Part shown: positions 31,454 to 61,381 of the stretch, one piece after another
Position numbering within the stretch: position 1 is the stretch's first letter
How the letters are laid out: every line of letters begins with the position of its first letter
From: Bacteroidaceae bacterium
GTDB lineage: Bacteria; Bacteroidota; Bacteroidia; Bacteroidales; Bacteroidaceae
Length of the DNA: 64,000 bases
NCBI GenBank assembly: GCA_016280445.1
Contig: JAEEGS010000048.1
Span: forward strand, 1-64,000
Reading direction: 5' to 3'
The notes under the pieces: model-generated
The model's input: the letters and a program-made list of their open reading frames with translations, nothing else
Database searches by the model: none
Told to the model about the DNA's origin: nothing
Position numbers and translations under genes: made by a program

Positions 31454-33616
<2,163 letters not shown>

Positions 33617-35382: not shown

Positions 35383-35416
35383 TTTGTTCTCTATTTTACA
35401 GGTTTGGTTTCGTCGA

Positions 35417-35424
35417 CAAAGGTA
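35417..35424 (-). promoter_or_regulatory. Promoter of the GH43 and GH10-CE1 genes
   Basis: The minus strand reads TACCTTTG directly after the T-run of the preceding terminator, 35 bp before the GH43 ATG. Confidence 0.6.
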
Positions 35425-35460
35425 CAAAAAAAGCAACGCCAGCATTTTTGCTGGCGTTGC
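35425..35460 (-). terminator. Intrinsic terminator of the 61-aa gene
   Basis: gcaacgccagc / gctggcgttgc with an AT loop, followed on the minus strand by seven T. The next promoter abuts it. Confidence 0.9.
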
Positions 35461-35495
35461 ATAAGATTGTGCCTTTGATACAAGCACGTGGGTGA

Positions 35496-38862: not shown

Positions 38863-38896
38863 CAAAAAAGGGGCGGTCGTGGTGTACGACCGCCCC
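38863..38896 (-). terminator. Intrinsic terminator of the GH43 gene
   Basis: ggggcggtcgt / acgaccgcccc forms an 11-bp stem, followed by a T-run on the minus strand, 22 bp after the stop codon. Confidence 0.88.
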
Positions 38897-38917
38897 TGCT
38901 GTGTATGGGGTTCTGTC

Positions 38918-41012: not shown

Positions 41013-43385
41013 TTAGTGGCTGAGGGTAAGAGGTTGATGGGCTTTGACTGCTACCTCATACTCGTGGATGCCATCGTGTGTGGCAACCAACTGAAGACCC
41101 TTGGCGGTGAGGGTGTCCTTACTGCGCAGACGGAGGGTGCCGTCCACCTGAGGAACGAGTGTTGCCCGAGTGAGGGTGCCTTTTGCCCAAGAGAGGCTCA
41201 CTTCATAGCCACCACGGGCTTTGAGGCCACTGACACTGCCTTCGCTCCACACATCGGGCAGAGCAGGCAAGAGGTGGATGGCTGGGTGTTCGGCGGTGAT
41301 GGGGTCGCTCTGCATGAGCATCTCGGCGATACCGGCCGTGACACCAAAGTTACCGTCAATCTGGAAGGGTGGATGGGCGTCGAAGAGATTGGGGAAGGTG
41401 CGTCCATCGGGGTACTCACGCTCCCTACCCTCGTTGGGAAGGAGGCGCAGCATATTGCTGATAATCTTGAAGGCATGGTTGCCGTCGAGCATCCGTGCCC
41501 AGAAGTTGGTCTTCCAACCAAGGCTCCAGCCTGTGGCCTGGTCGCCGCGCTGCTGAAGGGTCACACCTGCAGCTTTCCAGAGGTCGGGAGTGGTGTATGG
41601 AGATATCTGGTTGGAGGGATAAAGTCCGTAGAGATGGGAGATATGGCGGTGTTCGTCACGTGGGTCGTCCAAGTCCTCACGCCACTCCTGCAACTGGCCG
41701 TACTGCCCCACTTTCATCGGCGGCAGTTTGGAGATGGCCTTGGAAAGTTTCTGCTGATAAGCCTCATCCTCACCCAGAATCTTAGAAGCCTCCAAAGCCT
41801 GAGTGAGCACGTCGCGTACAATCTGGTTGTCCATCGTACAGCCGGCACAAACAGTGGACTGCTTGCCTCGGCCACCATGCTCGGGCGACACGCTAGGCAC
41901 GACGAGAAGTTCACCATCGTGTTCCACCATGAAGTCGAGGTAGAAGTCGGCCGCACCCTTCATGATGGGGTAATAGGTACGGAGGAAATCCTTGTCGAGC
42001 GTGTATTGGTAGTGCTCCCACAGGTGGGTGGTGAGCCATCCGCCACCATTGGGGAACATACCCCATGTGGCACCATCGATAGGACCAGCAATGCGCCAGA
42101 GGTCGGTGTTGTGGTGTGCCACCCAACCCCGACAACCGTACATGACACGGGCGGTCTCGGCACCTGTCTCGCTGAGGTCTTTCGTCATGGAGAAGAGCGG
42201 TTCGGCAGTCTCGGAGAGGTTGCACACCTCAGCAGGCCAGTAATTCATCTCGGCATTGATGTTGATGGTGTATTTGGAATCCCACGGTGCATTGCGCTTG
42301 TCGTTCCACACGCCCTGCAAGTTGGCTGCCTGTCCACCCTTCTGAGAAGAAGAAATGAGCAGGTAACGGCCATAGTTGAAGAGGAGAGCCACCATACCCA
42401 TGTCGGTGCTGCCATAGAACTTGTCGAGGCGCTGGTCTGTGGGAAGTTGGGCGTTGCCAGACGATGGCAACGAAAGTTTGACACGGTTATATTGTTTCTG
42501 ATACTCAGCCAGATGACGTTTCAAGAGTTGATCAAACTTCATGGTCTCAGCCGCAGCAAGGAACTGTTCGTTCTTTTGTGCCGCATTGCCGCTCACGTCG
42601 TGGTAGTTCACGAAGTTGGTGGCGGCAGAGATATAGAGGGTGGCCTCGGTGGCACCTTCCACCTTCAGGGTTTCACCATCGTCTTTCACCATACCATCAG
42701 CCTTCACATCGGTGCGGCACTGAGCGGTGAGGGCTGCCTTGATGCCTTCTTGCTCCACGCCCTCGATAGTGGCCACCAAGGTCTTGCCCGTGGCATTCAC
42801 CGTCAGCGGAAACTGACACTTGTGGGAAAGCGTGAAGTTCAAGGCACCCTTCTTGCTTGCCTTCACCTGCACCACCACGACGCCATCGGCCAAAGAGGCG
42901 ATGACACGACGTGTGTACTTTACATTATTATATAGGTAAGAAGTAGTGTTTGTGGCGGTCTGTAAGTTGAGTTCACGCACATAGTCCTTCACGTCCTTGT
43001 GTCCGAACTGAAGGCTGAGGCTACCCAACGTGAGGAAACGCATGCCATGAGGACCTTTGATAAACTCACGGTTGATGATGCCTTCGGCTTCCCGCTCCTT
43101 GCCATCGAAGATGAGGTTGCGCACCTCGGTGAGATGCTGCAGCGAAGTGGTGCTGTTGTTGTTGTGAGGGCCTCCGCTCCAGAAGGTCTCCTCGTTCAAT
43201 TGAATCTCTTCCACATCGGTACCGCCATACACCATGGCACCCATGCGCGAGTTGCCCAACGGCAAAGCCTCCAACCACACTGTAGCAGGATGGTCATACC
43301 ACAAACGGTTTGTGTTGTCGTCTGGTTCGGCCCAAATCGCCACAGCCCACAAGGCCACGGCTATCATCGTAAAAACTCTTTTCAT
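41013..43385 (-). CDS. Glycoside hydrolase family 95 (alpha-L-galactosidase or alpha-L-fucosidase)
   Basis: A 790-aa exported enzyme with the full GH95 layout: N-terminal beta domain starting LWYDHPATVWLEALPLGNSRMGAMVYGG, helical barrel with NLQGVWNDKRNAPWDSKYTININAEMNYW-type blocks, and a C-terminal sandwich. GH95 members are mostly fucosidases, but in the Bacteroides ovatus complex-xylan locus a GH95 enzyme is an alpha-L-galactosidase that trims glucuronoarabinoxylan; the setting here favours that. I start at MKRVFTMIAVALWAVAIWA; the 24 residues before it translate a long inverted repeat. Confidence 0.9.
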   Translation of the reverse strand: MKRVFTMIAVALWAVAIWAEPDDNTNRLWYDHPATVWLEALPLGNSRMGAMVYGGTDVEEIQLNEETFWSGGPHNNNSTTSLQHLTEVRNLIFDGKEREAEGIINREFIKGPHGMRFLTLGSLSLQFGHKDVKDYVRELNLQTATNTTSYLYNNVKYTRRVIASLADGVVVVQVKASKKGALNFTLSHKCQFPLTVNATGKTLVATIEGVEQEGIKAALTAQCRTDVKADGMVKDDGETLKVEGATEATLYISAATNFVNYHDVSGNAAQKNEQFLAAAETMKFDQLLKRHLAEYQKQYNRVKLSLPSSGNAQLPTDQRLDKFYGSTDMGMVALLFNYGRYLLISSSQKGGQAANLQGVWNDKRNAPWDSKYTININAEMNYWPAEVCNLSETAEPLFSMTKDLSETGAETARVMYGCRGWVAHHNTDLWRIAGPIDGATWGMFPNGGGWLTTHLWEHYQYTLDKDFLRTYYPIMKGAADFYLDFMVEHDGELLVVPSVSPEHGGRGKQSTVCAGCTMDNQIVRDVLTQALEASKILGEDEAYQQKLSKAISKLPPMKVGQYGQLQEWREDLDDPRDEHRHISHLYGLYPSNQISPYTTPDLWKAAGVTLQQRGDQATGWSLGWKTNFWARMLDGNHAFKIISNMLRLLPNEGREREYPDGRTFPNLFDAHPPFQIDGNFGVTAGIAEMLMQSDPITAEHPAIHLLPALPDVWSEGSVSGLKARGGYEVSLSWAKGTLTRATLVPQVDGTLRLRSKDTLTAKGLQLVATHDGIHEYEVAVKAHQPLTLSH

Positions 43386-43403
43386 ACAGATTTCAGTATC
43401 AGT

Positions 43404-43466
43404 AAAAGAAACATGCCACAAAGTTCGCCCTTTTTGCCTAAACGAACTTTGTGGCATGTTTCTTTT
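43404..43466. repeat. Perfect 24-bp inverted repeat with promoter-like arms
   Basis: 43404-43427 and 43443-43466 are exact reverse complements (aaaagaaacatgccacaaag and on) around a 15-base spacer. On the minus strand the 3' arm carries gaactttg, a near match to the -7 element, in front of GH95. It can act as a terminator for the YARHG gene and as a promoter for GH95. Confidence 0.85.
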
Positions 43467-43489: not shown

Positions 43490-44632
43490 TCACCAATTGC
43501 CATTCACGTATTTCCACTCACGTTTCGTAAAGTCGCTGGTGTCTTGCTTCCAAGACGGGTCGGGCATATACCACCAGAACTTGTTGAAGTAGGCCTGCAA
43601 GCCCTTGTCCTTGAACACGTAACCACGGTGAGCGTAAGGAAGGTTTCGCATGATACGTTTCTGTTCGGCAGAAGCAGTCTCGCTGTCGAGCATGGGCCAA
43701 AAGGTATCGCTGCGGTCGTAGTACCAGCCTAAAGGCTTTTCGCCTTCCTCAAGATACTGATAATTGTCAACCGATACGATATTCAGGTTTTCTGAAGGAC
43801 GGAAAGCTGTCTTGTGCCACTCCACCATACCATTTCTCAACGTCACCTCCACGTAGGAGTTCTCGTCATCAAACCTTCTGGTACGAACCTTGCCAACACC
43901 TTCCTTCACCACCCAGTTGGCACCTTGGAACAGCGATGAACTGACTCCAAAATACTTGGCGGTCTTGTCTGCTCTGATGCGCAGGGTGAAGTCATCAATC
44001 TGGCTGTTCGCCCATCGCATGGCAGGCTTCAGCCAATAAGGTACCTCGAACGTGCGCATCACTCCGTAGGACATCGTGTAGCGATAGGTGTGATGGACGG
44101 TGTTCTTTCCCTCCTTGAAAAATGCCTGGAAATAGTAAACATAAGAGAAGTTGACAGACTCTTTGGTGTTCTTGTTGATAAGGGTGCATCCGTAGTCCTC
44201 AATATCTTCATTCGGATTCGGCACACGCCACACATTCAGGTCGAGCGGAGCCAAGTCGCTTTCACCCTCTTCGCCAGAAGCCGTCACGCCAGTCTTATAG
44301 GGCAACACCTGACCATTCATCTCCACGGTGAAGTTGAAGATGTAGGGATGTCCCTTGGTAGGTTGGAACGTGCCTTCGTCCGCATTGTAGGGAGCAGCAG
44401 CCTCAAAGCCCATGTCCACCGTCTTTGCCTTGCCACGGTTCGTGAACTCATACTGTACATCCACTAGTGCCGTGCCATCGTCACAAAGACTAATGGTCAG
44501 CACTTCTTTTGTCACAGCCACATCCGTCTCCTTCAGCGGCACCAACTGGTTGCCATTCACGAAGAAGACACCATCGTTGGCCATTACCATGGCTGTCACC
44601 AGCCATAAAAGCATGAATGTCATTTTTTTCAT
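43490..44632 (-). CDS. Secreted protein with a C-terminal YARHG-like domain
   Basis: A 380-aa exported protein. The signal peptide starts at MKKMTFMLLWLVTAMVMA, so I use the Met at 44632 in place of the track start. Residues ~20-290 are beta-rich and unfamiliar in detail (VDVQYEFTNRGKAKTVDMGFE). The last ~70 residues fit the YARHG domain: RIMRNLPYAHRGYVFKDKGL and AYFNKFWWYMPDPSW, an extracellular domain thought to bind peptidoglycan or other envelope material. Its place amid xylanases is unexplained. A near-consensus promoter (TACCTTCGC) lies in the 76-bp gap after the GH30 gene. Confidence 0.75.
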   Translation of the reverse strand: MKKMTFMLLWLVTAMVMANDGVFFVNGNQLVPLKETDVAVTKEVLTISLCDDGTALVDVQYEFTNRGKAKTVDMGFEAAAPYNADEGTFQPTKGHPYIFNFTVEMNGQVLPYKTGVTASGEEGESDLAPLDLNVWRVPNPNEDIEDYGCTLINKNTKESVNFSYVYYFQAFFKEGKNTVHHTYRYTMSYGVMRTFEVPYWLKPAMRWANSQIDDFTLRIRADKTAKYFGVSSSLFQGANWVVKEGVGKVRTRRFDDENSYVEVTLRNGMVEWHKTAFRPSENLNIVSVDNYQYLEEGEKPLGWYYDRSDTFWPMLDSETASAEQKRIMRNLPYAHRGYVFKDKGLQAYFNKFWWYMPDPSWKQDTSDFTKREWKYVNGNW

Positions 44633-44708
44633 ATCCAGCATGTTTTTTGCGTTTAACGTGGCGAAGGTAAGGCAAAAACTCGACACAAGCAAGAATTTGC
44701 CTCCTTTT

Positions 44709-47258
44709 TTACTTCACAAACACCTTTTTGCCCTCGCGGATGTATATGCCACGGGTGGGGTGTGCCACTTGCTGACCATTGAGGTTAAACCACTTACCCG
44801 TCGGTTTGCCATCGGCTGGCGTTGCCGTAATGCCCGTGGCGGTGAAGGAGATGGGCAAGAAGTCGTCCGTCATTTCAGGCTGTGCATATACGCCGAAGGG
44901 AGCAAGGCTACTGGTTTGAGTCAACCGTTGCAGTCCCCACAGACCTTCACTCTGGGCCAGCACGTAGTCGCCAGCATTCAGCGAAGTTTGGGCATAAGTT
45001 CCACGCAACAGGTCAGTCAACGGACTGGCAGCCCACGACACGTCGCCAGAACCGACGAACGTAAAGGTGCCTTCGCCCTGAACCAGCACCGGCTGATGAG
45101 CCTGAATAGTTTCCGCTGATTCAGCCTCCAGATTGGCATTCAACGTATAAGCGGTGACACCCTCCGGAACAGCGGCATCAAATGGCAGCATCAGCAGACG
45201 CATGCCATTCAACGTGAAGGTGGCACTGGCCGATTCGGCCGTGAAGGCTGTAGCAGGACGGAAGTCACCACCCTCTTCGCTCAACTGCAAGGTCTGACAT
45301 GTAGAACCTGTCACGACGTTGGCGCCTGCAAGTGTGGTGCCATCGGCAACATAGACAACTTTGTTGGTACCCTCCAGCCAAGGGAACGTCTCAGGCAAGT
45401 TGGTGACACCCTTGAAGTCGAGACTGGTGCAGGTTGGATCGGTGGTATAGTCAAGCACATAACTGTCGTCGGCCACGTATGCTCCTGTGAGCGTGGCGGA
45501 ATAGTTCGTGCCAAGATACACATTGCCAAACGTGATGCTCAATGTGGAACTCCAGTTATTGTTGGTCAGCGAAATCAGTCCGATGCAGCCGTCTGTCAGC
45601 GTGGCTGGCGAGAGGTCGAGAACCAACGAGAAGTTCTCACGGCGATTGAGGTCAAGTTCGCCATAATCATGCGTGGACACCTTCCCATTCTTATTCACAT
45701 AGGTCAGCGTCGTCAAGGCACTGGTGTAGTTGAGAGTGGAAGACACTTTCTTCACCTCCATCACCAACTGGTTGTAGCGGTCGCCAAGAGCGACATAGCC
45801 GTACGAGGCAGTGGTGCGGGATGAGATGAGCGGATTCGAATGGTCGAACGTCTTGGTCTTATTGCTGATTTTATAAGCTGTACCGAAGCCAGTCTTCGTC
45901 ACACTTTGGTCGTCCAAACGGTCGAAACGGGTAGAAGTTCCCTTCATGTCACTCTGCTGACGGTCTTTGCTGCGCACGAAAAGGACTGTATTCACACTCT
46001 GGGCCACGATTCTGACAACAGGACGGCAAACATCCTCGTCATATCTCAGCGTCGTATTGGTCAAGCTACTGGTTTTAGATGTCCTGCACATTTTTCCCCC
46101 CTTCGTGTAGAAAGGCAAGTCCATGGTCAAATCGACCGCCTCTGTACCCGTATTGGCCATCACAGCCACCACGGTGTCGCCTGTCTGGGAGAGATAAGCA
46201 GACCCTTCCAAGGAGCCTCCTGAGAACGTGGCATCAATGCGGGTCATGCCTGTCACGAAACGGGCAAAGTGAGCCATCACATATCCACGCTTCGTCACGA
46301 CACCAGAAGAGGTGCCATACTCCCCATCACCCAACGGACCGTAGAACCGCTTGCCTGCATAGTGAATCCAAGCATTGAAGTCGCCCACCATACAGGTGTT
46401 GATGGCACGGAAGAAGTTAAAGAAATCTGAAGAAAAGTTGAAGTTACGCTTGGTCGCCGCATTCTCATTCCAGTTAATCAGGTATTCAGTCATCCAGATC
46501 TCCTTCCCCTTCTTGGCCAAGTTTTTATAAGCAGACTGGATGCCACCGTACTGGTGTCCTCCGTAGATGTCAAAGCAGTTGATAACATCATCGGTATTGA
46601 GCGCATTGACATAGCCATCGCTAACGGCCAATGTCTCAGGAGCCATAATCTTGCAACTGATGGAACGACCATACAGTTTGACAAACTCTGCAATCTCACC
46701 TGCAGACCAGAGACATCCTGCATATTTGGCATTCCAGTCGGGTTCATTCTGGATAGAGATGGCATCGAGTTCCACCCCGTTCTGACGCAGATATTGTACA
46801 TAGTCCTCCAAATATTGTGCATAGTCAGGCCAATTCTCGCGCTTGAGGCTACCCTTGACGCCCGCACTGGTTTCTGCATCAATGCTGTTATTGGTTTTCC
46901 ACTCGGCAGGCTGTCCCCACGGAGAGGCGAAGACTATAAGCCCCATCTGCTTGGCTTTCTTGGCCGTCTCCAATGACTGATACCACGATGACCTTCCGAT
47001 AGGAATGTAGATACGCATAATGTTGCAACCCACGGTGCTCGACTTTCCCCACACCTTCTGGATGTCGGTCGTGGACATGTGGTTATACTGGAACTGAGGA
47101 GAGCAGACAAACGCTCCAAAGCCCGTGATGCGCTGATGGGTGACCCCTGCATCGAAACGGGCTGTAGCACTTTGCTGTGCTTCAGCCATCGAAGCCATTC
47201 CCACCATCAAAGCCAAAAATATCTTGCGAAGCATACCATTTCTTTTCATCTGATTCAT
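44709..47258 (-). CDS. Glycoside hydrolase family 30 endo-xylanase with sorting-like tail
   Basis: An 849-aa exported enzyme. Residues ~30-420 match GH30 subfamily 8 glucuronoxylanases: acid/base Glu in AISIQNEPDW (~172) and nucleophile Glu in WMTEYLINW (~258), followed by the side beta domain. Such enzymes cut xylan next to glucuronic acid branches. Residues ~430-580 are a sandwich of CBM type, ~620-800 hold the LRLLMLPFDAAVPEGVTAYTL-like domain shared with the 704-aa protein, and the end is GKWFNLNGQQVAHPTRGIYI plus a basic stretch. The start could also be Met 9 (MLRKIFLALMVG). It is 22 bp after the CE1 gene. Confidence 0.88.
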   Translation of the reverse strand: MNQMKRNGMLRKIFLALMVGMASMAEAQQSATARFDAGVTHQRITGFGAFVCSPQFQYNHMSTTDIQKVWGKSSTVGCNIMRIYIPIGRSSWYQSLETAKKAKQMGLIVFASPWGQPAEWKTNNSIDAETSAGVKGSLKRENWPDYAQYLEDYVQYLRQNGVELDAISIQNEPDWNAKYAGCLWSAGEIAEFVKLYGRSISCKIMAPETLAVSDGYVNALNTDDVINCFDIYGGHQYGGIQSAYKNLAKKGKEIWMTEYLINWNENAATKRNFNFSSDFFNFFRAINTCMVGDFNAWIHYAGKRFYGPLGDGEYGTSSGVVTKRGYVMAHFARFVTGMTRIDATFSGGSLEGSAYLSQTGDTVVAVMANTGTEAVDLTMDLPFYTKGGKMCRTSKTSSLTNTTLRYDEDVCRPVVRIVAQSVNTVLFVRSKDRQQSDMKGTSTRFDRLDDQSVTKTGFGTAYKISNKTKTFDHSNPLISSRTTASYGYVALGDRYNQLVMEVKKVSSTLNYTSALTTLTYVNKNGKVSTHDYGELDLNRRENFSLVLDLSPATLTDGCIGLISLTNNNWSSTLSITFGNVYLGTNYSATLTGAYVADDSYVLDYTTDPTCTSLDFKGVTNLPETFPWLEGTNKVVYVADGTTLAGANVVTGSTCQTLQLSEEGGDFRPATAFTAESASATFTLNGMRLLMLPFDAAVPEGVTAYTLNANLEAESAETIQAHQPVLVQGEGTFTFVGSGDVSWAASPLTDLLRGTYAQTSLNAGDYVLAQSEGLWGLQRLTQTSSLAPFGVYAQPEMTDDFLPISFTATGITATPADGKPTGKWFNLNGQQVAHPTRGIYIREGKKVFVK

Positions 47259-47280: not shown

Positions 47281-49071
47281 TTACTTGACAAACACTTTCT
47301 TACCATCATGGATATAAAAACCATGAGTGGGGTGTTCCACCTGTTGACCATTGAGGTTGAACCACTTACCTTTCCGCTTCTCATCGACTGCCACCGTTGT
47401 GACACCCGTGGCGGTATACCCTTTTTGGTAGAGAGACAAGTAACCTATCACGGCATCACTCCACGCAGAATCAGCAGAATAGATGGCAATCACGTATTCG
47501 TCCTCCTCTTCAATCTCAAAGTCGAAGTTCTTCTGTACCACCGTACTAAAATCGTTGGCCGCATTATTACCAATGTTGACGCTGGGTTTGTAGGTCTGCG
47601 AAGCCACCTCCTGACCGTTTTTCTTCTCTATGCAGATGGTGACAGGAGTAAACCCGGGCTGGTTCCAATTGCAAATCTTATACTTCAACTGATAATTACC
47701 AGGAGCCAGTTTCAACGTGGCGTTCGTTGCGTTCAAGCCATATTTGGCATAGCCAGAACGCGTTCCACCGTCCTTGTTGCGGAAGTAAAGTCCGTAGTTG
47801 AACGCATGCTTCGAACCCGTGAACTGCAAAATACGGCAGCCCATGGAATAGCCATTACTATATCCTGTGCGCTTTTCATCGCCATCATAAGTTGTCCATC
47901 CTGCAGGAATGCTCGCATTTTCCGTGAAGAAAGTCGAAAAAGTATAATTGGATACCGGTGCACCAAAAGTCACCTCCACCGTGGCCGTTGATGTCTCGCC
48001 ATCATTGTCGGTGGCCACCGCCTGCAACTTGTGCTTACCAGCCGGTGCATCCACCAACGTGGCGGTGTAAGGCTGTCCTGTACACGTGGCTATCAACGTG
48101 CTGCCATCGTAGAACTCCACCTTCTCAATGGTGCCGTTCGGGTCGGAAGCCGTAGCGGTGATGGTCACAGATGGGAAGGTGGCCTCGCCTGTTGGGGCAA
48201 AACATGTGTAAACAAGCCCTGCCTTCGGAGCGGTGATAGATACATTCGGAGCGGTCTTGTTGAGAGAGTAATTCTTGCAGAAGTTCCACATCTCCTTACC
48301 CGTGTACACAGCAGGTTCCTTGCACACCCAGTGGCCTTTGTCTGCCAACTCCAACAACTTGACTTCGACGCCGTCGTTGCCTGGTGCCCAAGTATACATC
48401 TTGGCATTGAACCCGTTGTAATTATTCACCACCTTGGCTGTTGTAGGACAGCCGTTGTGGTTAATCCATACGTTCAATGCAGGCTGCGCACCACTGTACC
48501 CACACACATCGTCACCTGTACCATGGATATGCAGGATAGGTAGCGGACGCACATTAGCATTGGCCGTTGCGCCGCCCATCGGATAACCGCTGACAGGAAC
48601 GAAAGCGGCAATGAGGTCGGGAATCTTGTTCATGGCATGGTAGGTAAACATACCACCCATGGAGAAGCCACCGAGATAGACGCGGTTGGTGTCAATCTTG
48701 TATTTCTTCACCATCTCGTCAATCAGCGCCTTCACAAAGTTGATGTCGCGGTCGCCAGAAATATCCCACTGATTGCTAATGCCGTTTGGGAAAACAATGA
48801 CGAACTTGGCGGTGTCGCAAACGTTTTCTATGCTAATCTTCCTTTCAGGATTTTGAGTATCCCTGAACTGCGTGTTCAACATGTAGTTGGCATCCTGACC
48901 CGAACCATGACAGAAGATGAACAGCGGGCGGTTCTCTCCCAGATTCTGTGGAGCATACGAGATGTAAGTACGGTTCGTGCCACCGACATTCAACGTGCTG
49001 GTCTGTGCCACAACGGGCAACGAAGCAAGGCTCAACAGGGCCACAATGGCCATTACGATAAACTTTTTCAT
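47281..49071 (-). CDS. CE1-type esterase with Ig-like and CBM-like modules
   Basis: A 596-aa exported esterase of the CE1/PHB-depolymerase-like group. The alpha/beta hydrolase (residues ~25-280) has PLFIFCHGSGQDANYM for the oxyanion hole, the catalytic serine in GGFSMGGMFTYH and the LHIHGTGDD block with the acidic residue. It probably removes acetyl or feruloyl groups from xylan. An Ig-like domain (VTITATASDPNGTIEKVEFY) spans ~295-370 and a further sandwich ~375-555. The tail WFNLNGQQVEHPTHGFYI is nearly the same as in the GH30 neighbour. It starts 9 bp after the CotH gene ends and is clearly cotranscribed. Confidence 0.9.
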   Translation of the reverse strand: MKKFIVMAIVALLSLASLPVVAQTSTLNVGGTNRTYISYAPQNLGENRPLFIFCHGSGQDANYMLNTQFRDTQNPERKISIENVCDTAKFVIVFPNGISNQWDISGDRDINFVKALIDEMVKKYKIDTNRVYLGGFSMGGMFTYHAMNKIPDLIAAFVPVSGYPMGGATANANVRPLPILHIHGTGDDVCGYSGAQPALNVWINHNGCPTTAKVVNNYNGFNAKMYTWAPGNDGVEVKLLELADKGHWVCKEPAVYTGKEMWNFCKNYSLNKTAPNVSITAPKAGLVYTCFAPTGEATFPSVTITATASDPNGTIEKVEFYDGSTLIATCTGQPYTATLVDAPAGKHKLQAVATDNDGETSTATVEVTFGAPVSNYTFSTFFTENASIPAGWTTYDGDEKRTGYSNGYSMGCRILQFTGSKHAFNYGLYFRNKDGGTRSGYAKYGLNATNATLKLAPGNYQLKYKICNWNQPGFTPVTICIEKKNGQEVASQTYKPSVNIGNNAANDFSTVVQKNFDFEIEEEDEYVIAIYSADSAWSDAVIGYLSLYQKGYTATGVTTVAVDEKRKGKWFNLNGQQVEHPTHGFYIHDGKKVFVK

Positions 49072-49080
49072 ATAGAAATC

Positions 49081-51486
49081 TTATTTGACATATAGTTTCT
49101 TACCATTATAAATATAAATGCCACGTGTGGGGTGTGCCACAGCCTGACCATTCAAGTTGTAGTAGGTTCCCTTGGCTGGCAGGTGTTGAATCGTGGCAAT
49201 CTCGGTCGTTTCCTCCGATGGAATGAGATAAGCTCCCTGCAAATTAATGGAATTGTTCCAGTCCACTTTCAGGGCATTCAGATGCACAAACTCATCTATA
49301 CGGTTCTTTCCATCGTTGGTGGTCGGGATGGTCTTCAGGTCTTCCAACGGAACGACAATGGCCTGATAGTCAGCATCCCAGTATGGGTCGTTCTCGTTGA
49401 AGGAGACCACAATCTGCTTCCACGGGCCATGTGCCACCAAGCGATTGGCAAGGATTCGGAGTCCACTGCCCGTGCCCCTCAGTACGAGATGCGTATAAGG
49501 AGTGAGGTCAGCATAATGGTTTTCTTCCACACCCACAAATCCTGCCACAGCAGTTCCACCTCCCGCATTTTGGCGCATGTGCCAATCCACTTCCACAGCC
49601 TTGTCCAAAGGCTCAGCATCAGCACCCGTGCCATCCCACTCGTGGAACATGGAAGCGGTCATGCGTTCCCATCCTTCGGGCAGTTCGAAATCATCCACAT
49701 TAACATAGCCCATGATGTTGTTCAGCACCAAAGAAGAACGTACGGGGAAATATTGGTTGAGCAGGCGGTTCCGTTCCTTCATGTAGGTGCCATCGACCGT
49801 GTAGAGATTCATGGTCGAACAATCCACATCGCGACGGTAGTCGCCCCATCTTGCCGACTCGGCGTAGAGGGCTGTGGCAATAACGTTGTAGAGGCTGTCC
49901 CACACCTCCACAGCACTCTCAGGACCTAAGAATCCGTCGTCAGCCAACACTTCCTTGGCACGGCGCAGATAACGTCGCGAGAAGTCTTCGTTTTGCAACA
50001 AGTTATGGAAAATGCCCGTCGGGTAACTCTGACCATTGTTCTTGCTCAACACGTTCTCGTTGAGGTTGACCATAATTAATTCAGAATCCCAGCAAAGGAA
50101 GCGGAAACCCTGGCTACCTTCTCCACGACGACGAATGGCATACCAGTTGTGGTGGTCCCAGTCGGTGTTACCACCATACTGGTTGATGAGCATGTAGTCG
50201 ATGAAGGCGTCAATATCCAACAGCGGTTCCAGTTCCGGGTCGAGATGACCTTTGGCATCCTTACCCTGCAACAGATTGTAATACGTATCGTCACCTGCCT
50301 GAGCGGCCACCTGCACCATCTGATTGTAGGCATCCATGTCACCCTCTGCAGCCTCCAGATGGTTGCCGCCAGCCTCTTCCACCTTGATGACATCGATATC
50401 CGTTTTCGCGCCACCCAGATGGTCTTTGCCAAACTGTTCGTCCACACGCTCTGCCAGATTGTAGAGTCCCCAATACATGCCGTTCAGGAACAGATGCACA
50501 TAGAGTGCATTCACACTCGTCCGACCCATCTTCCGTTGTATGCGTCGTGCCCACACGTCGCGAGTGTACTGTGCCTTCTCACGGTTCGATTCCATCCAAT
50601 GCTGCCACGCGTTGCCGAAATGGCAACGCAACACAAGTTGGTCAAATTTCGCTGGTTCGTTCTCTCCAAAGAGCGGATACTTCAAAGATTTCTCCCCATA
50701 CTCCTTCTTGAAGACCAAACGGAACGAGTGCTTGGGGTTCTTCTCTGCCAAACGGCCATGACCACCATGCAGACGAAGTCCACACGTGACCGAGAATCCC
50801 TCTCCCGGCTCCTCATCCGTCGGAGCGTTCCAGAATTCCACGTTCGCAAAGCGAGTCCATCCATGTCCTGTGGCATCTCCCACTGGAGGTCCTGTAAAAA
50901 TGTAGATACCACCACGGTCAGGGTCATTCTCATGGCTAAACAGATTATCTTTGTCCGTCACAATGCTCACCACTGGCAGGCTTTTCAAGCCCTCCACCAT
51001 CCGTGCCCGCAACACTGGGTCAGCCACCATCTCCTCGTCCATGGCATAGTCAGCGATGGCCGTACCAACCGACTGGGTGAAGGCACCCCATTCCGATGGA
51101 TAACCTTCTGGGTCAGCAGGTTGTGCCAGCACATCATCGATGAACAAATAAGTGGCGGTACAGATCTCCGACACACGCTCCTCATCTCGAAAAGCCGCCG
51201 CACGCACCACCGTATTGCCTTTCACCTCAATCGCATCACCATACACAGCGCTGCTGGCGACAGGCTCACTACAGTCAAGCGTGTAGCGGATAACGGTTCC
51301 TTCCGTCATCACATCGTCTGGAGCCGTCACTTCCAGCGAGAAAGGTGCATCGCAAAATCCATGCGGATGGCTGAACGAGAGTTTCTGGGCAACCATCGGC
51401 ATCGAACAAGCCAACAAGGCCACGACCATCAGCAGCCGAACACTTTTCCCAAACGTCAGTTGAACAATATCATTTCTTTGTAGCAT
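49081..51486 (-). CDS. Secreted CotH-type kinase family protein
   Basis: An 801-aa exported protein. After the signal peptide, residues ~35-110 are a chitobiase/Fn3-like sandwich. Residues ~160-480 are a CotH domain (KNPKHSFRLVFKKEYG; FLNGMYWGLYNLAERVDEQF) with the catalytic and metal-binding stretch TDWDHHNWYAIRRR and FLCWDSELIM. CotH proteins are atypical protein kinases known from spore coats; in Bacteroidetes they are secreted and their targets are unknown. The C-terminal ~200 residues are a sandwich plus the shared tail (YYNLNGQAVAHPTRGIYI). I start at the Met at 51486; the longer form has 13 more residues. It heads the CotH-CE1-GH30 unit. Confidence 0.85.
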   Translation of the reverse strand: MLQRNDIVQLTFGKSVRLLMVVALLACSMPMVAQKLSFSHPHGFCDAPFSLEVTAPDDVMTEGTVIRYTLDCSEPVASSAVYGDAIEVKGNTVVRAAAFRDEERVSEICTATYLFIDDVLAQPADPEGYPSEWGAFTQSVGTAIADYAMDEEMVADPVLRARMVEGLKSLPVVSIVTDKDNLFSHENDPDRGGIYIFTGPPVGDATGHGWTRFANVEFWNAPTDEEPGEGFSVTCGLRLHGGHGRLAEKNPKHSFRLVFKKEYGEKSLKYPLFGENEPAKFDQLVLRCHFGNAWQHWMESNREKAQYTRDVWARRIQRKMGRTSVNALYVHLFLNGMYWGLYNLAERVDEQFGKDHLGGAKTDIDVIKVEEAGGNHLEAAEGDMDAYNQMVQVAAQAGDDTYYNLLQGKDAKGHLDPELEPLLDIDAFIDYMLINQYGGNTDWDHHNWYAIRRRGEGSQGFRFLCWDSELIMVNLNENVLSKNNGQSYPTGIFHNLLQNEDFSRRYLRRAKEVLADDGFLGPESAVEVWDSLYNVIATALYAESARWGDYRRDVDCSTMNLYTVDGTYMKERNRLLNQYFPVRSSLVLNNIMGYVNVDDFELPEGWERMTASMFHEWDGTGADAEPLDKAVEVDWHMRQNAGGGTAVAGFVGVEENHYADLTPYTHLVLRGTGSGLRILANRLVAHGPWKQIVVSFNENDPYWDADYQAIVVPLEDLKTIPTTNDGKNRIDEFVHLNALKVDWNNSINLQGAYLIPSEETTEIATIQHLPAKGTYYNLNGQAVAHPTRGIYIYNGKKLYVK

Positions 51487-51555
51487 AGTCGTAAAAGTAA
51501 ATATCTTTAGGTATTTGTGTATCAATTCAAAACATCTTGTTTCATATTAACAAAA

Positions 51556-51602
51556 CGTGCTGCAAAGTTATCCTTTTCGACAAGGAATCACTTTACAGCA
51601 CG
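51556..51602. repeat. Imperfect inverted repeat overlapping a promoter
   Basis: cgtgctgcaaagttatcctt is mirrored with few mismatches by aaggaatcactttacagcac. On the minus strand the 3' arm contains TAACTTTGC (51562-51570), a full -7 match in front of the CotH gene. The stem lies just after the GH43-CE1 stop codon. Confidence 0.75.
51562..51570 (-). promoter_or_regulatory. Promoter of the CotH-CE1-GH30 unit
   Basis: TAACTTTGC on the minus strand, 75 bp before the CotH start and inside an inverted repeat. Confidence 0.65.
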
Positions 51603-51638
51603 TATCTTTTTCTTTGCATTTTGTTTCGGCAAAGACGC

Positions 51639-54341
51639 TCACCTCTTCTTTCTCACCTTCTTCACGGCTCCCTGCTCGTCTCTGACAATATTGATGCCCT
51701 GCTGCGGAGTGGGCAACTGAACACCCGAAAGCGAATAGACAGCAGCCGGTGCACTACCGTTTGCCGAAGGTTGCTCAATGGCCGTGGCCTCCTCATCAGA
51801 AACAGCATAAAGAGCCAGTTGAGAGATGTTGATGACATCTGAGGTTGACGTTCGGGTGAGCGTGAGTTTACATTCGCCCCAATCTTCGTTCATATGGAAG
51901 AGGAACGACGCATCTCCTCCTACTGGAACTGATTTGTTCAGCAAGAAAGTCTTCTTGCCCGTCACCAGTTGCAGTTTCAGCATCATGAGCTTTCCTGCTT
52001 CACCTTCAGAATGGAAGCACAGCCGATAATAGCCCTTGGTCAACTGCAAGGAGTGATAGACGTTTTGATTACTACTTGTGTTTTGGTCACCTCCAAACCT
52101 CAGGAGTGTTGTGCTTGAGTTCACCGTCCAGCCATGCTTCTTCGGTTCATAGCCATCTGTCTCGATACGAGGCATCCATCGGAAAGTTTCGTCGCGTGGA
52201 GCATCGAACGTGTATTGGTTGAAGAAGTTCCACATGGTCTGCGAAGAGTTGCCCTCTGGCGTATTTGCGCTGAAAGCAAGATGTCCCATGCCATCCATCT
52301 CATAGTAAATGTATGGAAAACTGCCCTCCCCCGCTTCATACACGCTCTTGTCATATTTACCAGCCACCGAGGTCTTCTCAGGCACAGGATTCGCACCCAG
52401 ACGTGCCACCATCTCATCAACAATCGTTGGCATGAGTGAATACTTCACAAAATCATCGCTCTTACCATGAATGTGGAGGAATGGAACGGGTCGCACACCT
52501 GTGTGATGCAGGTGGAACTCGTTCAACGGGAAACCGCTAATGGAGGCATAGGAGGCAAACAAGTTGTTGCACGTATTGGTCAAAGCATAGGTCATCATGC
52601 CACCATTGGAGAAGCCGCAACAATAGATGCGGTTGCGGTCAATAGGATAGTTTGTTGCCACGTCCTCTACTATAGCGCGAATGAAGTCAACATCTGCATT
52701 TTCTTCGCCCGAGGCATCCCAACCTGTCACAGTTCCGCCAAACACAGGGAAGAAGATTTCCTTGCCTTGGGGATAGACCACGATGAAACCCTCCTTGTCA
52801 GCAATGTCTGTACCCATCGGAGACTTGTCCGTCATGTGGCCACTTGCACCATGCAAGGACACCACCAGAGGAACGGATGACTTGCACGATTGGGGCACAT
52901 AGAGCCAGTAGGAACGCTCCTCGCCATTCACATTGATAGAAACCGACTTGTCGGCAGGTTCCACCTTCTCCGCAAACTGCCAGCTGTCGAAGTCGAACAA
53001 CGATTGGCCCGTACCAGAGAACGTGAAGAAAATGTCACAAACACCCTTAATGGTAGGAGCCAAGGCACATTCCACGTCCACCCATTCGCCGTCAGTTGCC
53101 ACTATTGGCACCCTGGCCCTGGCGGCGCTTGACTTACTGCCGACACGCACCAGAAGTGTGCCCTTACCCGCAGAGCGAACCCTCACCTTGATGGAAGCAG
53201 CTCCTTTCGAGCCAAAGTCCACGTTGCGCACCTTCACATAGTCGCCCGAACTAATATTGGTCACATAGCACCCGTTGTAATCACCCTCACACTTCACACC
53301 AGAGCATTGGTTGATGGTCTCAGCCTCTTGGCGCTCATAGGGGTTCAGCGTCTGCAAAGGCGCCACGCCCTCGCTCGTAAACGAGATAAAGGGGATGGAG
53401 CCATCTTCATTCGGCGTAAACTCTTCCACACAAGTGGAACGCTTGTAACCGCCACCGCCTGGCAGTTTGCCATTGTGATAGAACATATAATGATGTCCCT
53501 TGTACTCTACGCTACCGCCATGAATGGTGAAACTTCCATCAGCCTCTCCCATCACTTTGCCTTGATACGTCCAAGGACCTTTAATATTGTCGGCTGTAGA
53601 ATAAGCCCAATGCTCAGGCACACCACCAGCGGCATACTCCAAATAGTATTTGCCATTCTTCTTGTAAATCCACGATGCCTCCTCAAAGTTCGTCTTCGGA
53701 TTATTATTATCATCATAGCCTTTGTAGGGTCCGAAAGCGGACTCGCTCTTCGTCGTCACCTCCTTCTCGCCACCCGTGATGGCCGTCATCGTTTTGGTCA
53801 GTTTGGTATACCACAGCATGTTGTTGCCGTAGAACAGGTAGGCCTGTCCATCGTCGTCAATCATCACCGTCGGGTCAATCTTGAACCATCCTTTCACCAG
53901 CGGTTTCCTGATGGGGTCCTTATAAGGTCCTGCGGGCGAGTTGGCCACAGCCACACCAATACCCGGGTAGGCCTCTCCCTTGATGGTGGCTGTCACATAC
54001 CAATACCACTTGCCGTTGCGTTCAATGCACTGGCTGGCCCAGCAGTCATTGTCCTGCTTAGCCCACGATGAGAACGTGGCTGAAGTCAACGGGGTGCCAC
54101 GATACGTCCAGTTCACCATGTCCACCGTGCTGTAGAGCAGCCAGTCCTTCATGGTGAAATAACCATTTTCCGTCACGTCTTCGTCGTGGTCAACGAAGAG
54201 ATAGAGCGTGTCACCATGCACATAAGGTGCCGGGTCGGCCGTATAACGGTCACAGATAATCGGGTTTTGAGCCCACATGACCACGACCGTCATCCATGCC
54301 GCGCCGCATGACATCACATGCTTCCATACATTTTTCAACAT
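51639..54341 (-). CDS. Fusion enzyme GH43-CBM6-CE1
   Basis: A 900-aa exported protein with two activities. Residues ~25-330 are a GH43 propeller (ICDRYTADPAPYVHGDTLYLFVDHD; KIDPTVMIDDDGQAYLFYGN; EEASWIYKKNGKYYL). Residues ~340-460 are a CBM6 xylan-binding module, and ~470-760 a CE1-type esterase with VVSLHGASGHMTD, the serine in CGFSNGGMMTYA and the histidine in DGMGHLAFSA. A ~130-residue sandwich and a degenerate form of the shared tail (AAVYSLSGVQLPTPQQGINI, then KKVRKKR) end the protein. It probably removes arabinose together with its ester. I start at MLKNVWKHVMSCG. Promoter at 54398-54406. Confidence 0.9.
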   Translation of the reverse strand: MLKNVWKHVMSCGAAWMTVVVMWAQNPIICDRYTADPAPYVHGDTLYLFVDHDEDVTENGYFTMKDWLLYSTVDMVNWTYRGTPLTSATFSSWAKQDNDCWASQCIERNGKWYWYVTATIKGEAYPGIGVAVANSPAGPYKDPIRKPLVKGWFKIDPTVMIDDDGQAYLFYGNNMLWYTKLTKTMTAITGGEKEVTTKSESAFGPYKGYDDNNNPKTNFEEASWIYKKNGKYYLEYAAGGVPEHWAYSTADNIKGPWTYQGKVMGEADGSFTIHGGSVEYKGHHYMFYHNGKLPGGGGYKRSTCVEEFTPNEDGSIPFISFTSEGVAPLQTLNPYERQEAETINQCSGVKCEGDYNGCYVTNISSGDYVKVRNVDFGSKGAASIKVRVRSAGKGTLLVRVGSKSSAARARVPIVATDGEWVDVECALAPTIKGVCDIFFTFSGTGQSLFDFDSWQFAEKVEPADKSVSINVNGEERSYWLYVPQSCKSSVPLVVSLHGASGHMTDKSPMGTDIADKEGFIVVYPQGKEIFFPVFGGTVTGWDASGEENADVDFIRAIVEDVATNYPIDRNRIYCCGFSNGGMMTYALTNTCNNLFASYASISGFPLNEFHLHHTGVRPVPFLHIHGKSDDFVKYSLMPTIVDEMVARLGANPVPEKTSVAGKYDKSVYEAGEGSFPYIYYEMDGMGHLAFSANTPEGNSSQTMWNFFNQYTFDAPRDETFRWMPRIETDGYEPKKHGWTVNSSTTLLRFGGDQNTSSNQNVYHSLQLTKGYYRLCFHSEGEAGKLMMLKLQLVTGKKTFLLNKSVPVGGDASFLFHMNEDWGECKLTLTRTSTSDVINISQLALYAVSDEEATAIEQPSANGSAPAAVYSLSGVQLPTPQQGINIVRDEQGAVKKVRKKR

Positions 54342-54362
54342 ATATCGTTCGTTTTGATTAAA

Positions 54363-54405
54363 AACTTTGCAAGGCAGAAGCCTTCGACTTCTGCCTTGCA
54401 AAGTT
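54363..54405. repeat. Perfect 18-bp inverted repeat at a promoter
   Basis: aactttgcaaggcagaag (54363-54380) and cttctgccttgcaaagtt (54388-54405) are exact reverse complements around ccttcga. On the minus strand the 5' arm begins with the TAACTTTGC promoter, so the message would start with a hairpin at or near its 5' end. Confidence 0.9.
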
Positions 54406-54406
54406 A
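54398..54406 (-). promoter_or_regulatory. Promoter of the GH43-CBM6-CE1 gene
   Basis: The minus strand reads TAACTTTGC, about 57 bp before the ATG. Confidence 0.65.
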
Positions 54407-54459
54407 CACATTATATATAAATGCCATTTGCGGCCATGTTGCATAAATGGCCATTCATG

Positions 54460-56862
54460 TTACATACGATACGTGATTTTCTGCACCACCTGTCCTGGGT
54501 CGCCAATGACCAGCGTGAGGGTATGACGGCGACGGGTACGGTCGATGGGCAATGTGAGCACGAAATCCTTGCGGTTTTCAAGCACTTGGAGTTTCCAGGG
54601 GAAGGACCATTCTTCGAATTTGTTTTCACACACCACAGGGGTGCCGCCGTCGAGGCTAACCCCCAAACGGTTGCTGCGGTCGAGAGTGACCGGCCAGAAG
54701 GGGACCACCGACACACAAATCTGGATGCTGTCACCCTGTACATCTTCCACCACAAAAGGCAAGTCAATGTGCTGGGAAGTGAGGCTGGCAGGGTCTTGCA
54801 CCGGGTCGAGGGGCTGTCCCATCTGAAGTGCGAGCCAATCGGTGCCGATGCCTTCGAGGAGACGGAAGGGAGATTTGGCAGCCACCTTAGCAAAGTCCAG
54901 CTTGTGAGAGAAGTTCGTGTACCGCTGACTCTCTGGAAGTTGATGCTCCGTCATAGGAGCCGTGACGAGTTCAGGCATGAGTTGGTATTTGGCACAAAAG
55001 CCTGGAGGTATCTCCGAAATCATCTGGTTCCACTTGCCATCGAGTTGGGTGTTGTAGGCGGTAAGCAGCGTTTGGATGCTGTCGAAAGCCTGCGTGGCTT
55101 CCCGTGCCGCCTCGGCGCCGCCTGTCTCGTGATTGCGTTGTGCCATGAGGAACTTGCGGTTCATCTGATAGGCAGACTTCACGCTATAGGCGATGATTTC
55201 GAAGAATGAGGGTCGGTAGGCCTGTGGCAGTTGCTGCATGATGGCATCGATGCGGTCGGAGATGGCCTGATAGTCTGCCAAACGCTTCTGTGCCGTGCCT
55301 GTCTCGAACGAGAAATCCGTATCGTGCAGCAGATTGTTCTCCTGACTGTCCCACTCCATCTCGTATCCCATGAACTCGGGCTTTCTGTCCCATGCCAGAC
55401 GATAGTAGGTGTCGAGTATCTGTTGGAAGTCACGTTCGTATTTCTTACCATAGATGGAAGCGAGCCACTGAGCCTGATAGCGGTTCACATTCTCGTAGGA
55501 GAAGGCCGAGAAGTCCCATGCCATATCGAAGAAATGCTGCACCTCCATCTCCAAGGGCTTGATGTCGCCTACATTGAGCAGCCAGTAGCGGTCGGCACCT
55601 GCATCGTAGGCCTTCTTCAATTCCTCGTACATGAGCATGGGTGCCGTGGTGGCTATCCAGAGATTGTCGTGAGGAGTGCCCAAATAACTCAGGTGATAAT
55701 AAACACCGCTGCCACCCGAGCGTTGACGTTCAGCATCGTTCGAGACCCTCTTCATGTAGCCGTAGTTATCATCTGGCCACACGAGGGTGATGTCATCGGG
55801 CACTCGCAGCCCTGCATCGTAGATGTCAAGCGTTTCCTTGTAGGGAACAAATATCTGGGGAATGTCGGTGGCCACCCTGCCCTTGTGGGTTTCCAAAATC
55901 TGTCGTTGGTCGGCAAACACCTGTTCGAGCGTACGGGCACGCACCTTGGGGTCTTTAGAGCCCCTCATGGCCTCATCGTGCAGACCACGCATACCCGTTG
56001 TATAGATATTGTCATATTGAGCCGTCTCGCGCAGACGGGCATCAAACTTCTTCCAGATGGTCTCCTTGTTGGTCAGGTAGTTCCATTCGCCATCACGCTC
56101 CTTGTCCCACTCCGAATGAGCCGCATTGTTGAAAAGCATCGGCTCACAATGGCTCGTGGTAATCATAATGCCCCACTCGGCTGCCACTTTCTGGCTCTCC
56201 GGATGGCTGTAGAAAGCACCTGTGCAGGAATGCATGGCTGGAGCCAGCATATTGCCCTTCAGACGCAGTATCAGTTCACACACCTTGTCGTAGGTCTTGG
56301 GGCCGATATCCTTCAAGTCCTTCTCGAAGGTATGCGCCGACCAAGTCTTCAATCCCCAGTCTTCGTCGTTGATGAAGAAACCGCGATACTTGACCGATGG
56401 CGACTTTGAGGTGAAGTTCTCCTTGTAGTCGAGAGTAGTCCTTTTCTGAACAGGCACATCGGCAAACCAATACCACGGCGACACGCCGATGCGCTCACTC
56501 ACATGCAGCACTCCGTAGGCCAAGCCACGAGGGTCACTTCCGATGATGATGAGACGATTGCCACGCGTCACAATCCTGTAACGCTCCCAACCGCGCAAAT
56601 CAGCCACATCCACCCCACTCTCCAGTTCTGCCGCATGGTCGGCTGTGGCCAACACGACGGAAGCCCCTTCTGGAACACGGTTCGTGACTGCCGGCCGCAC
56701 ACCTGTCACCCGTTCGATGTCTTCACTCAGCACCGATGCCATCTTCTTCACCAAAGCAGCATCAGCCTCCGAAGTCACAATCTGACAGCGCTTCAGGTCA
56801 ACCGCCTTCACACACATCACCGCACACCACGCGGCCACCAGCAATAATACCTTTCTTTTCAT
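54460..56862 (-). CDS. Glycoside hydrolase family 115 alpha-glucuronidase
   Basis: An 800-aa exported enzyme (signal peptide MKRKVLLLVAAWCAVMCVKA). The family blocks follow in order: an N-terminal alpha/beta domain (LIIIGSDPRGLAYGVLHVSE), then KYRGFFINDEDWGLKTW, LILRLKGNMLAPAMHSC, TLVWPDDNYGYMKRVSN and YYHLSYLGTPHDNLW of the catalytic barrel and helical domain. GH115 removes 4-O-methyl-glucuronic acid from internal and terminal xylose of xylan. The C-terminal domain after about residue 640 is shorter than in some members. It has its own promoter (minus-strand TACCTTTG at 56884-56891) and no sorting-like tail. Confidence 0.92.
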   Translation of the reverse strand: MKRKVLLLVAAWCAVMCVKAVDLKRCQIVTSEADAALVKKMASVLSEDIERVTGVRPAVTNRVPEGASVVLATADHAAELESGVDVADLRGWERYRIVTRGNRLIIIGSDPRGLAYGVLHVSERIGVSPWYWFADVPVQKRTTLDYKENFTSKSPSVKYRGFFINDEDWGLKTWSAHTFEKDLKDIGPKTYDKVCELILRLKGNMLAPAMHSCTGAFYSHPESQKVAAEWGIMITTSHCEPMLFNNAAHSEWDKERDGEWNYLTNKETIWKKFDARLRETAQYDNIYTTGMRGLHDEAMRGSKDPKVRARTLEQVFADQRQILETHKGRVATDIPQIFVPYKETLDIYDAGLRVPDDITLVWPDDNYGYMKRVSNDAERQRSGGSGVYYHLSYLGTPHDNLWIATTAPMLMYEELKKAYDAGADRYWLLNVGDIKPLEMEVQHFFDMAWDFSAFSYENVNRYQAQWLASIYGKKYERDFQQILDTYYRLAWDRKPEFMGYEMEWDSQENNLLHDTDFSFETGTAQKRLADYQAISDRIDAIMQQLPQAYRPSFFEIIAYSVKSAYQMNRKFLMAQRNHETGGAEAAREATQAFDSIQTLLTAYNTQLDGKWNQMISEIPPGFCAKYQLMPELVTAPMTEHQLPESQRYTNFSHKLDFAKVAAKSPFRLLEGIGTDWLALQMGQPLDPVQDPASLTSQHIDLPFVVEDVQGDSIQICVSVVPFWPVTLDRSNRLGVSLDGGTPVVCENKFEEWSFPWKLQVLENRKDFVLTLPIDRTRRRHTLTLVIGDPGQVVQKITYRM

Positions 56863-57010: not shown

Positions 57011-58806
57011 TTATGGCAATGGTGTTAATGGATATACGAGATTCACGATCAGGATATTGGCAGCAAGGATGATGATGTTCATCAGCAAGCCGATGCGGAC
57101 GAAATCGCTGAAGCGGTAGCCACCTGGGCCGTACACCAACATGTGGGTGGGCGAACCGATAGGCGTAGCAAAACTGCTGCTGACACTCACCATCAAGGCT
57201 ATGAGGAAGGGGAATGGATCGTAACCCAACTTCTCGGCGGCCTCGTACATGATGGGGAAGAACATGGCACCAGCCGCTGTATTTGAGATGAACTCGGTGA
57301 CGAAGGTGCCGACAAGACAGACAGCGGTCATCACCACAATCGGGTTAGTGCCGCAGACGTTGAGGATGCCGTTGGCCAGACACTCTGCAATGCCCGTTTT
57401 CTGGATAGCAAGGCCGAGGACGGCGCTACCGGCAAAGACCATGAGAATCTCCCAGTTGACGGCCCGCATGGCCTGCTCCATGTTACAGCAACGGAAGATA
57501 AGCATGGCTGCAGCTGCCAAGAAGGCACATTGCAAAAGTGGTATGACGTCAAGAGCCGAGAGCACCACCATGGTAATCATGATGGCAGTAGAGATGAGCG
57601 TACCGTACCCGATGTTAGGCACGTCTTCGGAATCAAAGAAGTGGAGATCATTCTTCAAAGTAGAAGTGTTGAGGTTGATTTTCCTCGGACACACCAACAG
57701 CAGCGTGTCGCCAGCCTGCAGCACCACGTTTCGTGGTGCCTGATTGATACGTTCACCACGTCGGGCAACAGCCGCCAGCGTCACATTGTTATCCTTCTCA
57801 AACGAACCGCCGCCGATAGTCTGCCCTATCAGACGGCTGCCGAAGGTGATGTATGCCGTTCGCAATTGACAACGATCGTCTATCTCGTTGATGGAAAAGA
57901 TATGGTGGTCGGCGCTCACCAACTGGTGGGTGTATGCCATCTCAATCAATTCGTCTATCTGGCCGGCATAAACCAGATGGTCACCACCCATGATGGGCTC
58001 ATCCTCCGAGATGGGCAACGAAGACTCGTCGAAGTGATGCATCTCGATTAGGCTGCCGCCTTTGACGTGGAAAAGGCCAGCCTCGCCCAACGTCTTTCCG
58101 ATATAAGGATTATCCGACGGAACCTGCAACTCCACAGTATAGTCGCTCGTCGACTCGAAAGCACTCTCAGGGACCTTGCGGTCGGGCAACAGGCGACGCA
58201 TGGCAATGACCGACAGCACGCCAATGCCCAGACAGAACAATCCAGGGATAGTCGTGGCCAGAATATTCATGGCCTCACCCGTCTTCTCCTCGTAGAGTCC
58301 GCTGATAATCAGGTTCGGCGGCGTACCGATCAAGGACAGACACCACCCATTCCCGAGGCATAACTCAGGGGAATGAGCAATTTCGAGGGCGAAATGCCCA
58401 GTTTCTTGGCCCACATCTTGACGATGCCGACAAAAAGCGTCACCACGGTCGTGTTGCTGAGAAACGCACTAAGCGCAGCCACTGGCAGCATCAGTCGCAT
58501 CACCGCCTTCGAATAACTGCTGGGTGTTCCGAGCAGATACCTCACGATACATTGCAGCACACCCGTGTGCATCAGTCCTGCGACAACCACGAAGAGCACG
58601 CCGACGGTAATGACCGACGTACCACTAAAACCCGAAAACGCATCTTTCGCATCGAGCACACCCGTGACAAAGAGCACACCGATGGCTCCGAGGAACACCA
58701 AATCGCTGCGCCACTTGGTAAACAACAGAATACTGAACATGCCCAGCACCGTCACGATGGTGATCCAGGCATCAAGGCCGAAGCCTAAAAACATGATTGA
58801 GTCCAT
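57011..58806 (-). pseudogene. SLC13/DASS-type transporter broken by a frameshift
   Basis: Two ORFs together make one complete divalent-anion:sodium symporter with TrkA-C domains. The first (58806-58330, 158 aa) has the N-terminal membrane segments and the motif LSNTTVVTLF, and ends at SYASGMGG. The second frame continues at once with LSLIGTPPNLIISGLY (about 58341 onward) and holds two TrkA-C-like regions (~VPSDNPYIGKTLGEAG and GSRLIGQTIGGG) and the second SNT motif (ISNTAAGAMFFP). The join at ~58340 needs one extra base after ggtggt. It is either a recent pseudogene, a phase-variable state or a sequencing error. Substrates of the family are sulfate or dicarboxylates; a link to xylan is not evident. 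Confidence 0.85.
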
Positions 58807-61341: not shown

Positions 61342-61381
61342 ACTTCGAATCATGAATTATCAATTATCAATTATCCATTCA

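Follow-up and report, generated by a model that had tools for sequence, protein, structure and literature searches.

Gene content of the CotH locus

The window, a stretch of 64,000 nucleotides, carries a locus that is a xylan utilisation locus on the evidence of its gene families, with a CotH-family gene placed among genes for xylan-active enzymes. The principal genes are listed below.

22620-26645, minus strand: hybrid two-component regulator of the locus
31454-33580, minus strand: GH10-esterase
33724-35487, minus strand: GH43
38918-40957, minus strand: secreted protein matching CBM6 weakly, its likeness to GH43 judged by eye only; closes the CotH unit
41013-43457, minus strand: GH95 enzyme, member of the CotH unit
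43490-44692, minus strand: YARHG/DUF4424 protein, member of the CotH unit
44709-47258, minus strand: GH30, XynC-type glucurono(arabino)xylanase with the CotH-type tail
47281-49071, minus strand: CE1-like esterase (Abhydrolase_2 and Big_7) with the CotH-type tail
49081-51486, minus strand: CotH-family gene, encoding an apparent signal peptide at about residues 1-34
51639-54401, minus strand: GH43-CBM6-CE1 fusion (Pfam), upstream of the CotH unit
54460-56862, minus strand: GH115 (alpha-glucuronidase family)
59626-61353, minus strand: SusD (Pfam)
61382-63955, minus strand: SusC-like protein, named from position and sequence, with no Pfam match at E 0.001

The nearest relatives of the GH30 protein are XynC-type glucuronoxylanases, and the best solved relative of the esterase is the feruloyl esterase 8jh8. 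The genus keeps the YARHG/DUF4424 protein near CotH in several of its xylan loci. A CitMHS-type transporter at 57011-58806 (minus strand) is split into two overlapping ORFs, corresponding to a single 598-aa ORF in relative L037. In the ORF list, the CotH gene starts at ATG and comprises 801 codons; an alternative TTG start at 51525 would lengthen the protein by 13 aa, and the Pfam coordinates of the protein are counted from this TTG, running 13 above the ATG numbering.

Organization of the probable transcription unit

Six genes follow one another in the order CotH, CE1, GH30, YARHG, GH95 and CBM6-like CAZyme, separated by gaps of 9, 22, 16, 32 and 55 bp. Two elements border them.

51520-51640, minus strand: intergenic region with a terminator-like hairpin of 14-bp stem and the promoter-like TAACTTTGC at 51570
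38869-38897, minus strand: strong intrinsic terminator closing the unit, a 12-bp stem followed by TTTTT

The upstream hairpin (z = -6.7) lies in the 152-bp region between the GH43-CBM6-CE1 gene and CotH. Within its 3' arm sits TAACTTTGC, an element of the Bacteroidota -7 type located 84 nt before the CotH ATG; the hairpin may or may not act solely as a terminator. TAnnTTTGC is the -7 promoter form of Bacteroidota, and matches to it occur upstream of 36 of 52 CotH orthologues, compared with about 1.5 expected from the window's own rate; this count covers orthologues with at least 80 nt of upstream sequence, 13.1 kb in total. Because the promoter-like element is found both in the window and ahead of these orthologues, the position of CotH as the first gene of its unit, already proposed by a sequence-only reading of this DNA, appears well supported, and the upstream hairpin, tight gaps and closing terminator agree with it. 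The gaps, promoter element and terminator together suggest that all six genes are co-transcribed. The same reading had described a CotH-CE1-GH30 unit: these three genes do stand in that order, and the unit is longer, extending over six genes to the terminator at 38897-38869.

Another promoter-like TAACTTTGC, followed immediately by a 20-bp hairpin and TTTTT, is present at 54340-54410 (minus strand) in the 5' region of the GH43-CBM6-CE1 gene. This element may represent a GH115 terminator overlapping a promoter, or an attenuator.

Domain architecture and putative kinase core of the CotH protein

Beyond its N-terminal segment, the CotH protein is divided into the following parts.

Residues about 61-113: Fn3_assoc/CHB_HEX_C_1 module (Pfam)
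Residues about 239-557: CotH kinase domain (PF08757)
Residues about 598-765: beta-sandwich module, from a confident structure prediction
Residues about 774-801: C-terminal tail

The match to PF08757 reaches 110.3 bits against a cut-off of 23.8 (E 1.7e-31, covering profile positions 3-300 of 322), placing the domain assignment beyond chance. No dockerin or cohesin module was matched by Pfam in the protein. Neither Pfam nor the PDB, searched by sequence and by fold, gave a significant match for the beta-sandwich. The module was considered as a known carbohydrate-binding module and rejected, since Pfam and sequence searches gave no match and the fold matches to CBM65, CBM16 and CBM35 were not significant; in the predicted model, its likeness to a CBM is one of appearance only. 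Two relatives of this module are held by an 1830-aa secreted protein of the same genome (L175, 2432-7924, minus strand).

The predicted model of the CotH protein has a mean pLDDT of 72. In a Foldseek search against the PDB, its top match, far ahead of the rest, is the Bacillus cereus CotH kinase 5jd9/5jda (E 3e-9, probability 1.00, TM 0.73 of target). Searches of solved structures with phmmer and with profiles found no CotH structure when the CotH protein was the query, while for two CotH paralogues of the genome (L001 and L003) sequence search does reach it. The DWDHHN and CWDSE motifs reported by the sequence-only reading are present as N440-T-D442-W-D-H-H446-N447-W and C465-W-D467-S-E469, and two of their codons correspond to residues of B. 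subtilis CotH.

50161-50163, minus strand: codon of D442 in motif NTDWDHHNW, equivalent of B. subtilis CotH Asp228
50086-50088, minus strand: codon of D467 in motif CWDSE, equivalent of B. subtilis CotH Asp251

The substitutions D228Q and D251A each inactivate B. subtilis CotH (PMC7821199). In the B. cereus chain, the motif aspartates (NFDGFVHN and PWDYD) are 23 residues apart and are taken as counterparts of D228 and D251 because that distance is the same. When the profile was aligned globally to the B. cereus CotH sequence, the motifs paired as expected, but this alignment has negligible probability by itself. Given the low sequence identity to the proven kinase, the residue equivalence therefore rests on the fold match, motif identity and spacing.

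N440, D442, H446, N447, D467 and E469 are identical in all 94 aligned homologues. About 22% of the kinase domain consists of columns as conserved as these, so this invariance speaks for constraint but does not alone prove catalysis. The motif CWD[ST]E, which was absent from the pattern used to find the orthologues, is kept in all 80 of them. Both catalytic aspartates are present, and the catalytic core is intact as judged from the sequence.

Probable export and the shared C-terminal tail

The CotH protein is likely secreted, as the sequence-only reading had assumed, because its N-terminal hydrophobic segment ends in AQ (a feature read by eye and kept in orthologues), the genome encodes the type IX secretion system (T9SS) core proteins GldM (228 bits) and SprA (2675 bits), and the protein has a tail in common with its neighbours. 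A location at the cell surface is likewise likely, as judged from these sequence features.

The tails of the CotH, CE1 and GH30 proteins score 69-72 bits against a tail profile that was itself built from these three tails and their orthologues. The profile matches about 28 places in the genome at E < 0.01; the genome-recurrent consensus is YxLxGQxVxxPxxGIYIxNGKKVxxK. As a standard T9SS domain the tail was not recognised: neither the curated model TIGR04183 nor Pfam matches it in the proteins tested. The description of a shared, sorting-like tail thus proved to be pitched at the right strength. About ten proteins of the genome match the T9SS tail model, including two other CotH paralogues. One paralogue (L003, 1194-3206, plus strand) is a fusion with a ricin-type lectin that ends in a recognised T9SS tail.

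Conservation of the association with xylan genes

A close CotH orthologue (at least 63% identity) is encoded in 19 of 45 genus genomes, and most of these orthologues sit amid homologues of GH115, CE1, GH95, YARHG and SusC/D. A wider set of 80 orthologue loci was drawn from GTDB genomes titled Prevotella, Prevotellaceae, Bacteroidaceae or Bacteroidales, mostly of ruminant gut origin. In 62 of these 80 loci, genes homologous to CAZymes of the window are found no more than 10 kb from CotH, and in 55 of the 62 they represent at least two families; no such homologue was found within 10 kb in the other 18, several of which are short contigs. Together with SusC/D and the xylan genes of the locus itself, these counts bear out the association with xylan enzymes that had been read from the window.

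The nearest neighbours of the orthologues are mainly CE1-like, GH95, GH43, GH10, GH30 and GH115 genes. By Pfam, downstream neighbours (n = 74) include 16-17 CE1-like, 8 GH95, 5 GH43 and 3 GH115 genes, and upstream neighbours (n = 78) include 12 GH10, 11 GH43, 6 GH30 and 4 GH98 genes. A dockerin type I Pfam match occurs in three upstream neighbours.

As a comparison for CAZyme density, the loci of the paralogues and the first 20 kb of the window were used. Most of the genome's five further CotH genes lack a clear neighbour among xylan genes, although a diverged GH95 lies about 3 kb from one of them and a weak GH30 match accompanies another. A CE1 orthologue is found in 15 of the 45 genus genomes, and 14 of these 15 also encode the CotH orthologue, partly unlinked (p = 9e-7, a value that ignores phylogeny and shared ancestry). 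One CotH orthologue belongs to the sequenced strain Prevotella communis E15-14, and its role is therefore open to experiment.

Proposed function and alternative explanations

We tentatively propose, at somewhat less than even confidence, that CotH is an exported and probably surface-displayed atypical kinase, encoded by the lead gene of the xylan unit, that phosphorylates co-secreted proteins of the locus. In this model, expression of the xylan-utilisation unit would start with CotH; Sec would carry the protein out, and the T9SS, acting through the common short tail, would place CotH, the esterase and the xylanase on the cell surface. The Fn3-like module and the C-terminal beta-sandwich would keep CotH close to the enzymes or the polysaccharide. 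Its CotH domain would hold nucleotide and metal through D442 and D467, with N447 and E469 probably contributing, and would phosphorylate Ser/Thr residues of co-secreted locus proteins, of which the CE1 esterase is the first candidate. In it, the surface location, catalysis, the protein substrates and any effect on enzyme activity or assembly are inferred. More generally, CotH may phosphorylate enzymes or glycans.

Several observations count against this model. The gene neighbours of CotH contain no Ser-rich tract of the CotB/CotG type, the maximum in any of them being 11 Ser/Thr per 30 residues, which weighs against a kinase acting on nearby proteins. ATP should be scarce outside the cytoplasm, and the want of a known ATP source there tells against an exported kinase. 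The second acidic residue is Glu (E469), not Asp, and sequence identity to a proven kinase is low. The 18 loci in which CotH lacks such CAZyme neighbours, and the failure of the T9SS model to recognise the tail, also speak against the model as a whole.

The main rival, less likely than the kinase reading, is that the CotH domain serves chiefly in binding or scaffolding, attaching the cell or the enzymes to the plant cell wall or to each other, with catalysis absent or incidental. Cellulosomal CotH proteins have been speculated to bind the plant cell wall or to aid assembly (PMC8665504, PMC12484212), and a binding role would also suit the weak, non-significant CBM65, CBM16 and CBM35 fold matches of the beta-sandwich, the lectin fusion in the tailed paralogue and the lack of an obvious extracellular ATP supply. 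However, the mapped catalytic residues are invariant across the 94 homologues, although a module devoted to binding alone could dispense with them, and the beta-sandwich itself has no significant match to any CBM.

It is considerably less probable that CotH serves in envelope biogenesis by modifying or folding the tail-bearing proteins of the polysaccharide utilisation locus (PUL) during export, before surface display. CotH has its tail and its unit in common with two tail-bearing enzymes, and genomes with the CE1 orthologue tend to encode CotH as well, even without linkage between the genes. Against this, CotH bears the tail too and is likely cargo itself, and about 25 further tail-bearing proteins are encoded away from it.

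Phosphorylation of a glycan is possible but unlikely. That the domain is a carbohydrate kinase acting on xylose or xylo-oligosaccharide ends, comparable to the xylose-phosphorylating Fam20B, is improbable: CotH is distantly related to Fam20, one member of which is generally known as a xylose kinase, its gene recurs in xylan loci and a protein-type substrate tract was not found nearby, but the best characterised bacterial CotH phosphorylates protein, sugar phosphorylation outside the cell would need ATP that is not expected there and bring no clear benefit, and none of the scanned genes was recognised as one for handling phospho-sugars. More improbable still is the specific form in which surface-exposed CotH phosphorylates xylose or xylo-oligosaccharides, so that part of extracellular xylan breakdown proceeds by way of phosphorylated glycans.

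Comparison with known systems and biological implications

The window CotH resembles the Bacillus CotH spore-coat kinase (PF08757; 5jd9, 5jda) in its kinase fold and in the aspartate motifs N-x-D...H-N and W-D-x-[DE] (PMC7821199), and in both cases gene neighbours are candidate substrates. It differs in being likely exported, in its additional Fn3-like, beta-sandwich and tail parts, and in having no spore link; it also has WDSE in place of WDYD and a motif spacing two residues longer, and, unlike B. subtilis CotH, no Ser-rich CotB/CotG-like neighbour, although such a neighbour does not define the family. Prevotellaceae xylan PULs contain SusC/D, HTCS, GH10, GH43, GH30, GH115 and CE1, all of which are also present in the window, whereas in the window a CotH kinase-family gene leads one unit. 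Fam20 secretory-pathway kinases are secreted, atypical and distant relatives of CotH. These eukaryotic enzymes work in the ATP-supplied Golgi, unlike the window CotH.

Bacterial and fungal cellulosomes are known to contain CotH proteins, for which a structural or kinase-regulatory role has been proposed (PMC12484212, PMC8665504, PMC6083626), and the sequence-only reading, which took such a role to be undescribed in xylan use, was too broad in its view of novelty. Like the window CotH, the cellulosomal proteins (CseP of Clostridium thermocellum and the CotH-dockerin proteins of clostridia, ruminococci and anaerobic fungi) are secreted and associated with plant cell-wall degradation, with a kinase or binding role proposed. 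In contrast to them, the window CotH has no dockerin, carries the tail and probably uses the T9SS, and belongs to a Bacteroidota PUL with recurrent xylan neighbours. A PUL-encoded, non-dockerin, probably T9SS-exported CotH of Prevotellaceae that keeps the catalytic residues and has a promoter of its own was not found in the open-access literature searched. The tie between CotH and the use of plant polysaccharides is thus already known, and the window adds a PUL-embedded, non-cellulosomal variant to it.

Unrelated systems for degrading plant cell walls, namely clostridial and fungal cellulosomes and Prevotellaceae PULs, repeatedly include CotH, which suggests a possible common role. For the rumen Prevotella relatives that carry CotH in a xylan cluster, the finding hints that extracellular digestion may involve phosphorylation. 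If active, CotH would represent a kinase of the envelope or the extracellular space that is devoted to one carbohydrate-utilisation locus of rumen Prevotellaceae, and would tie phosphorylation to fibre digestion outside the cell, raising the question of the phosphate donor.
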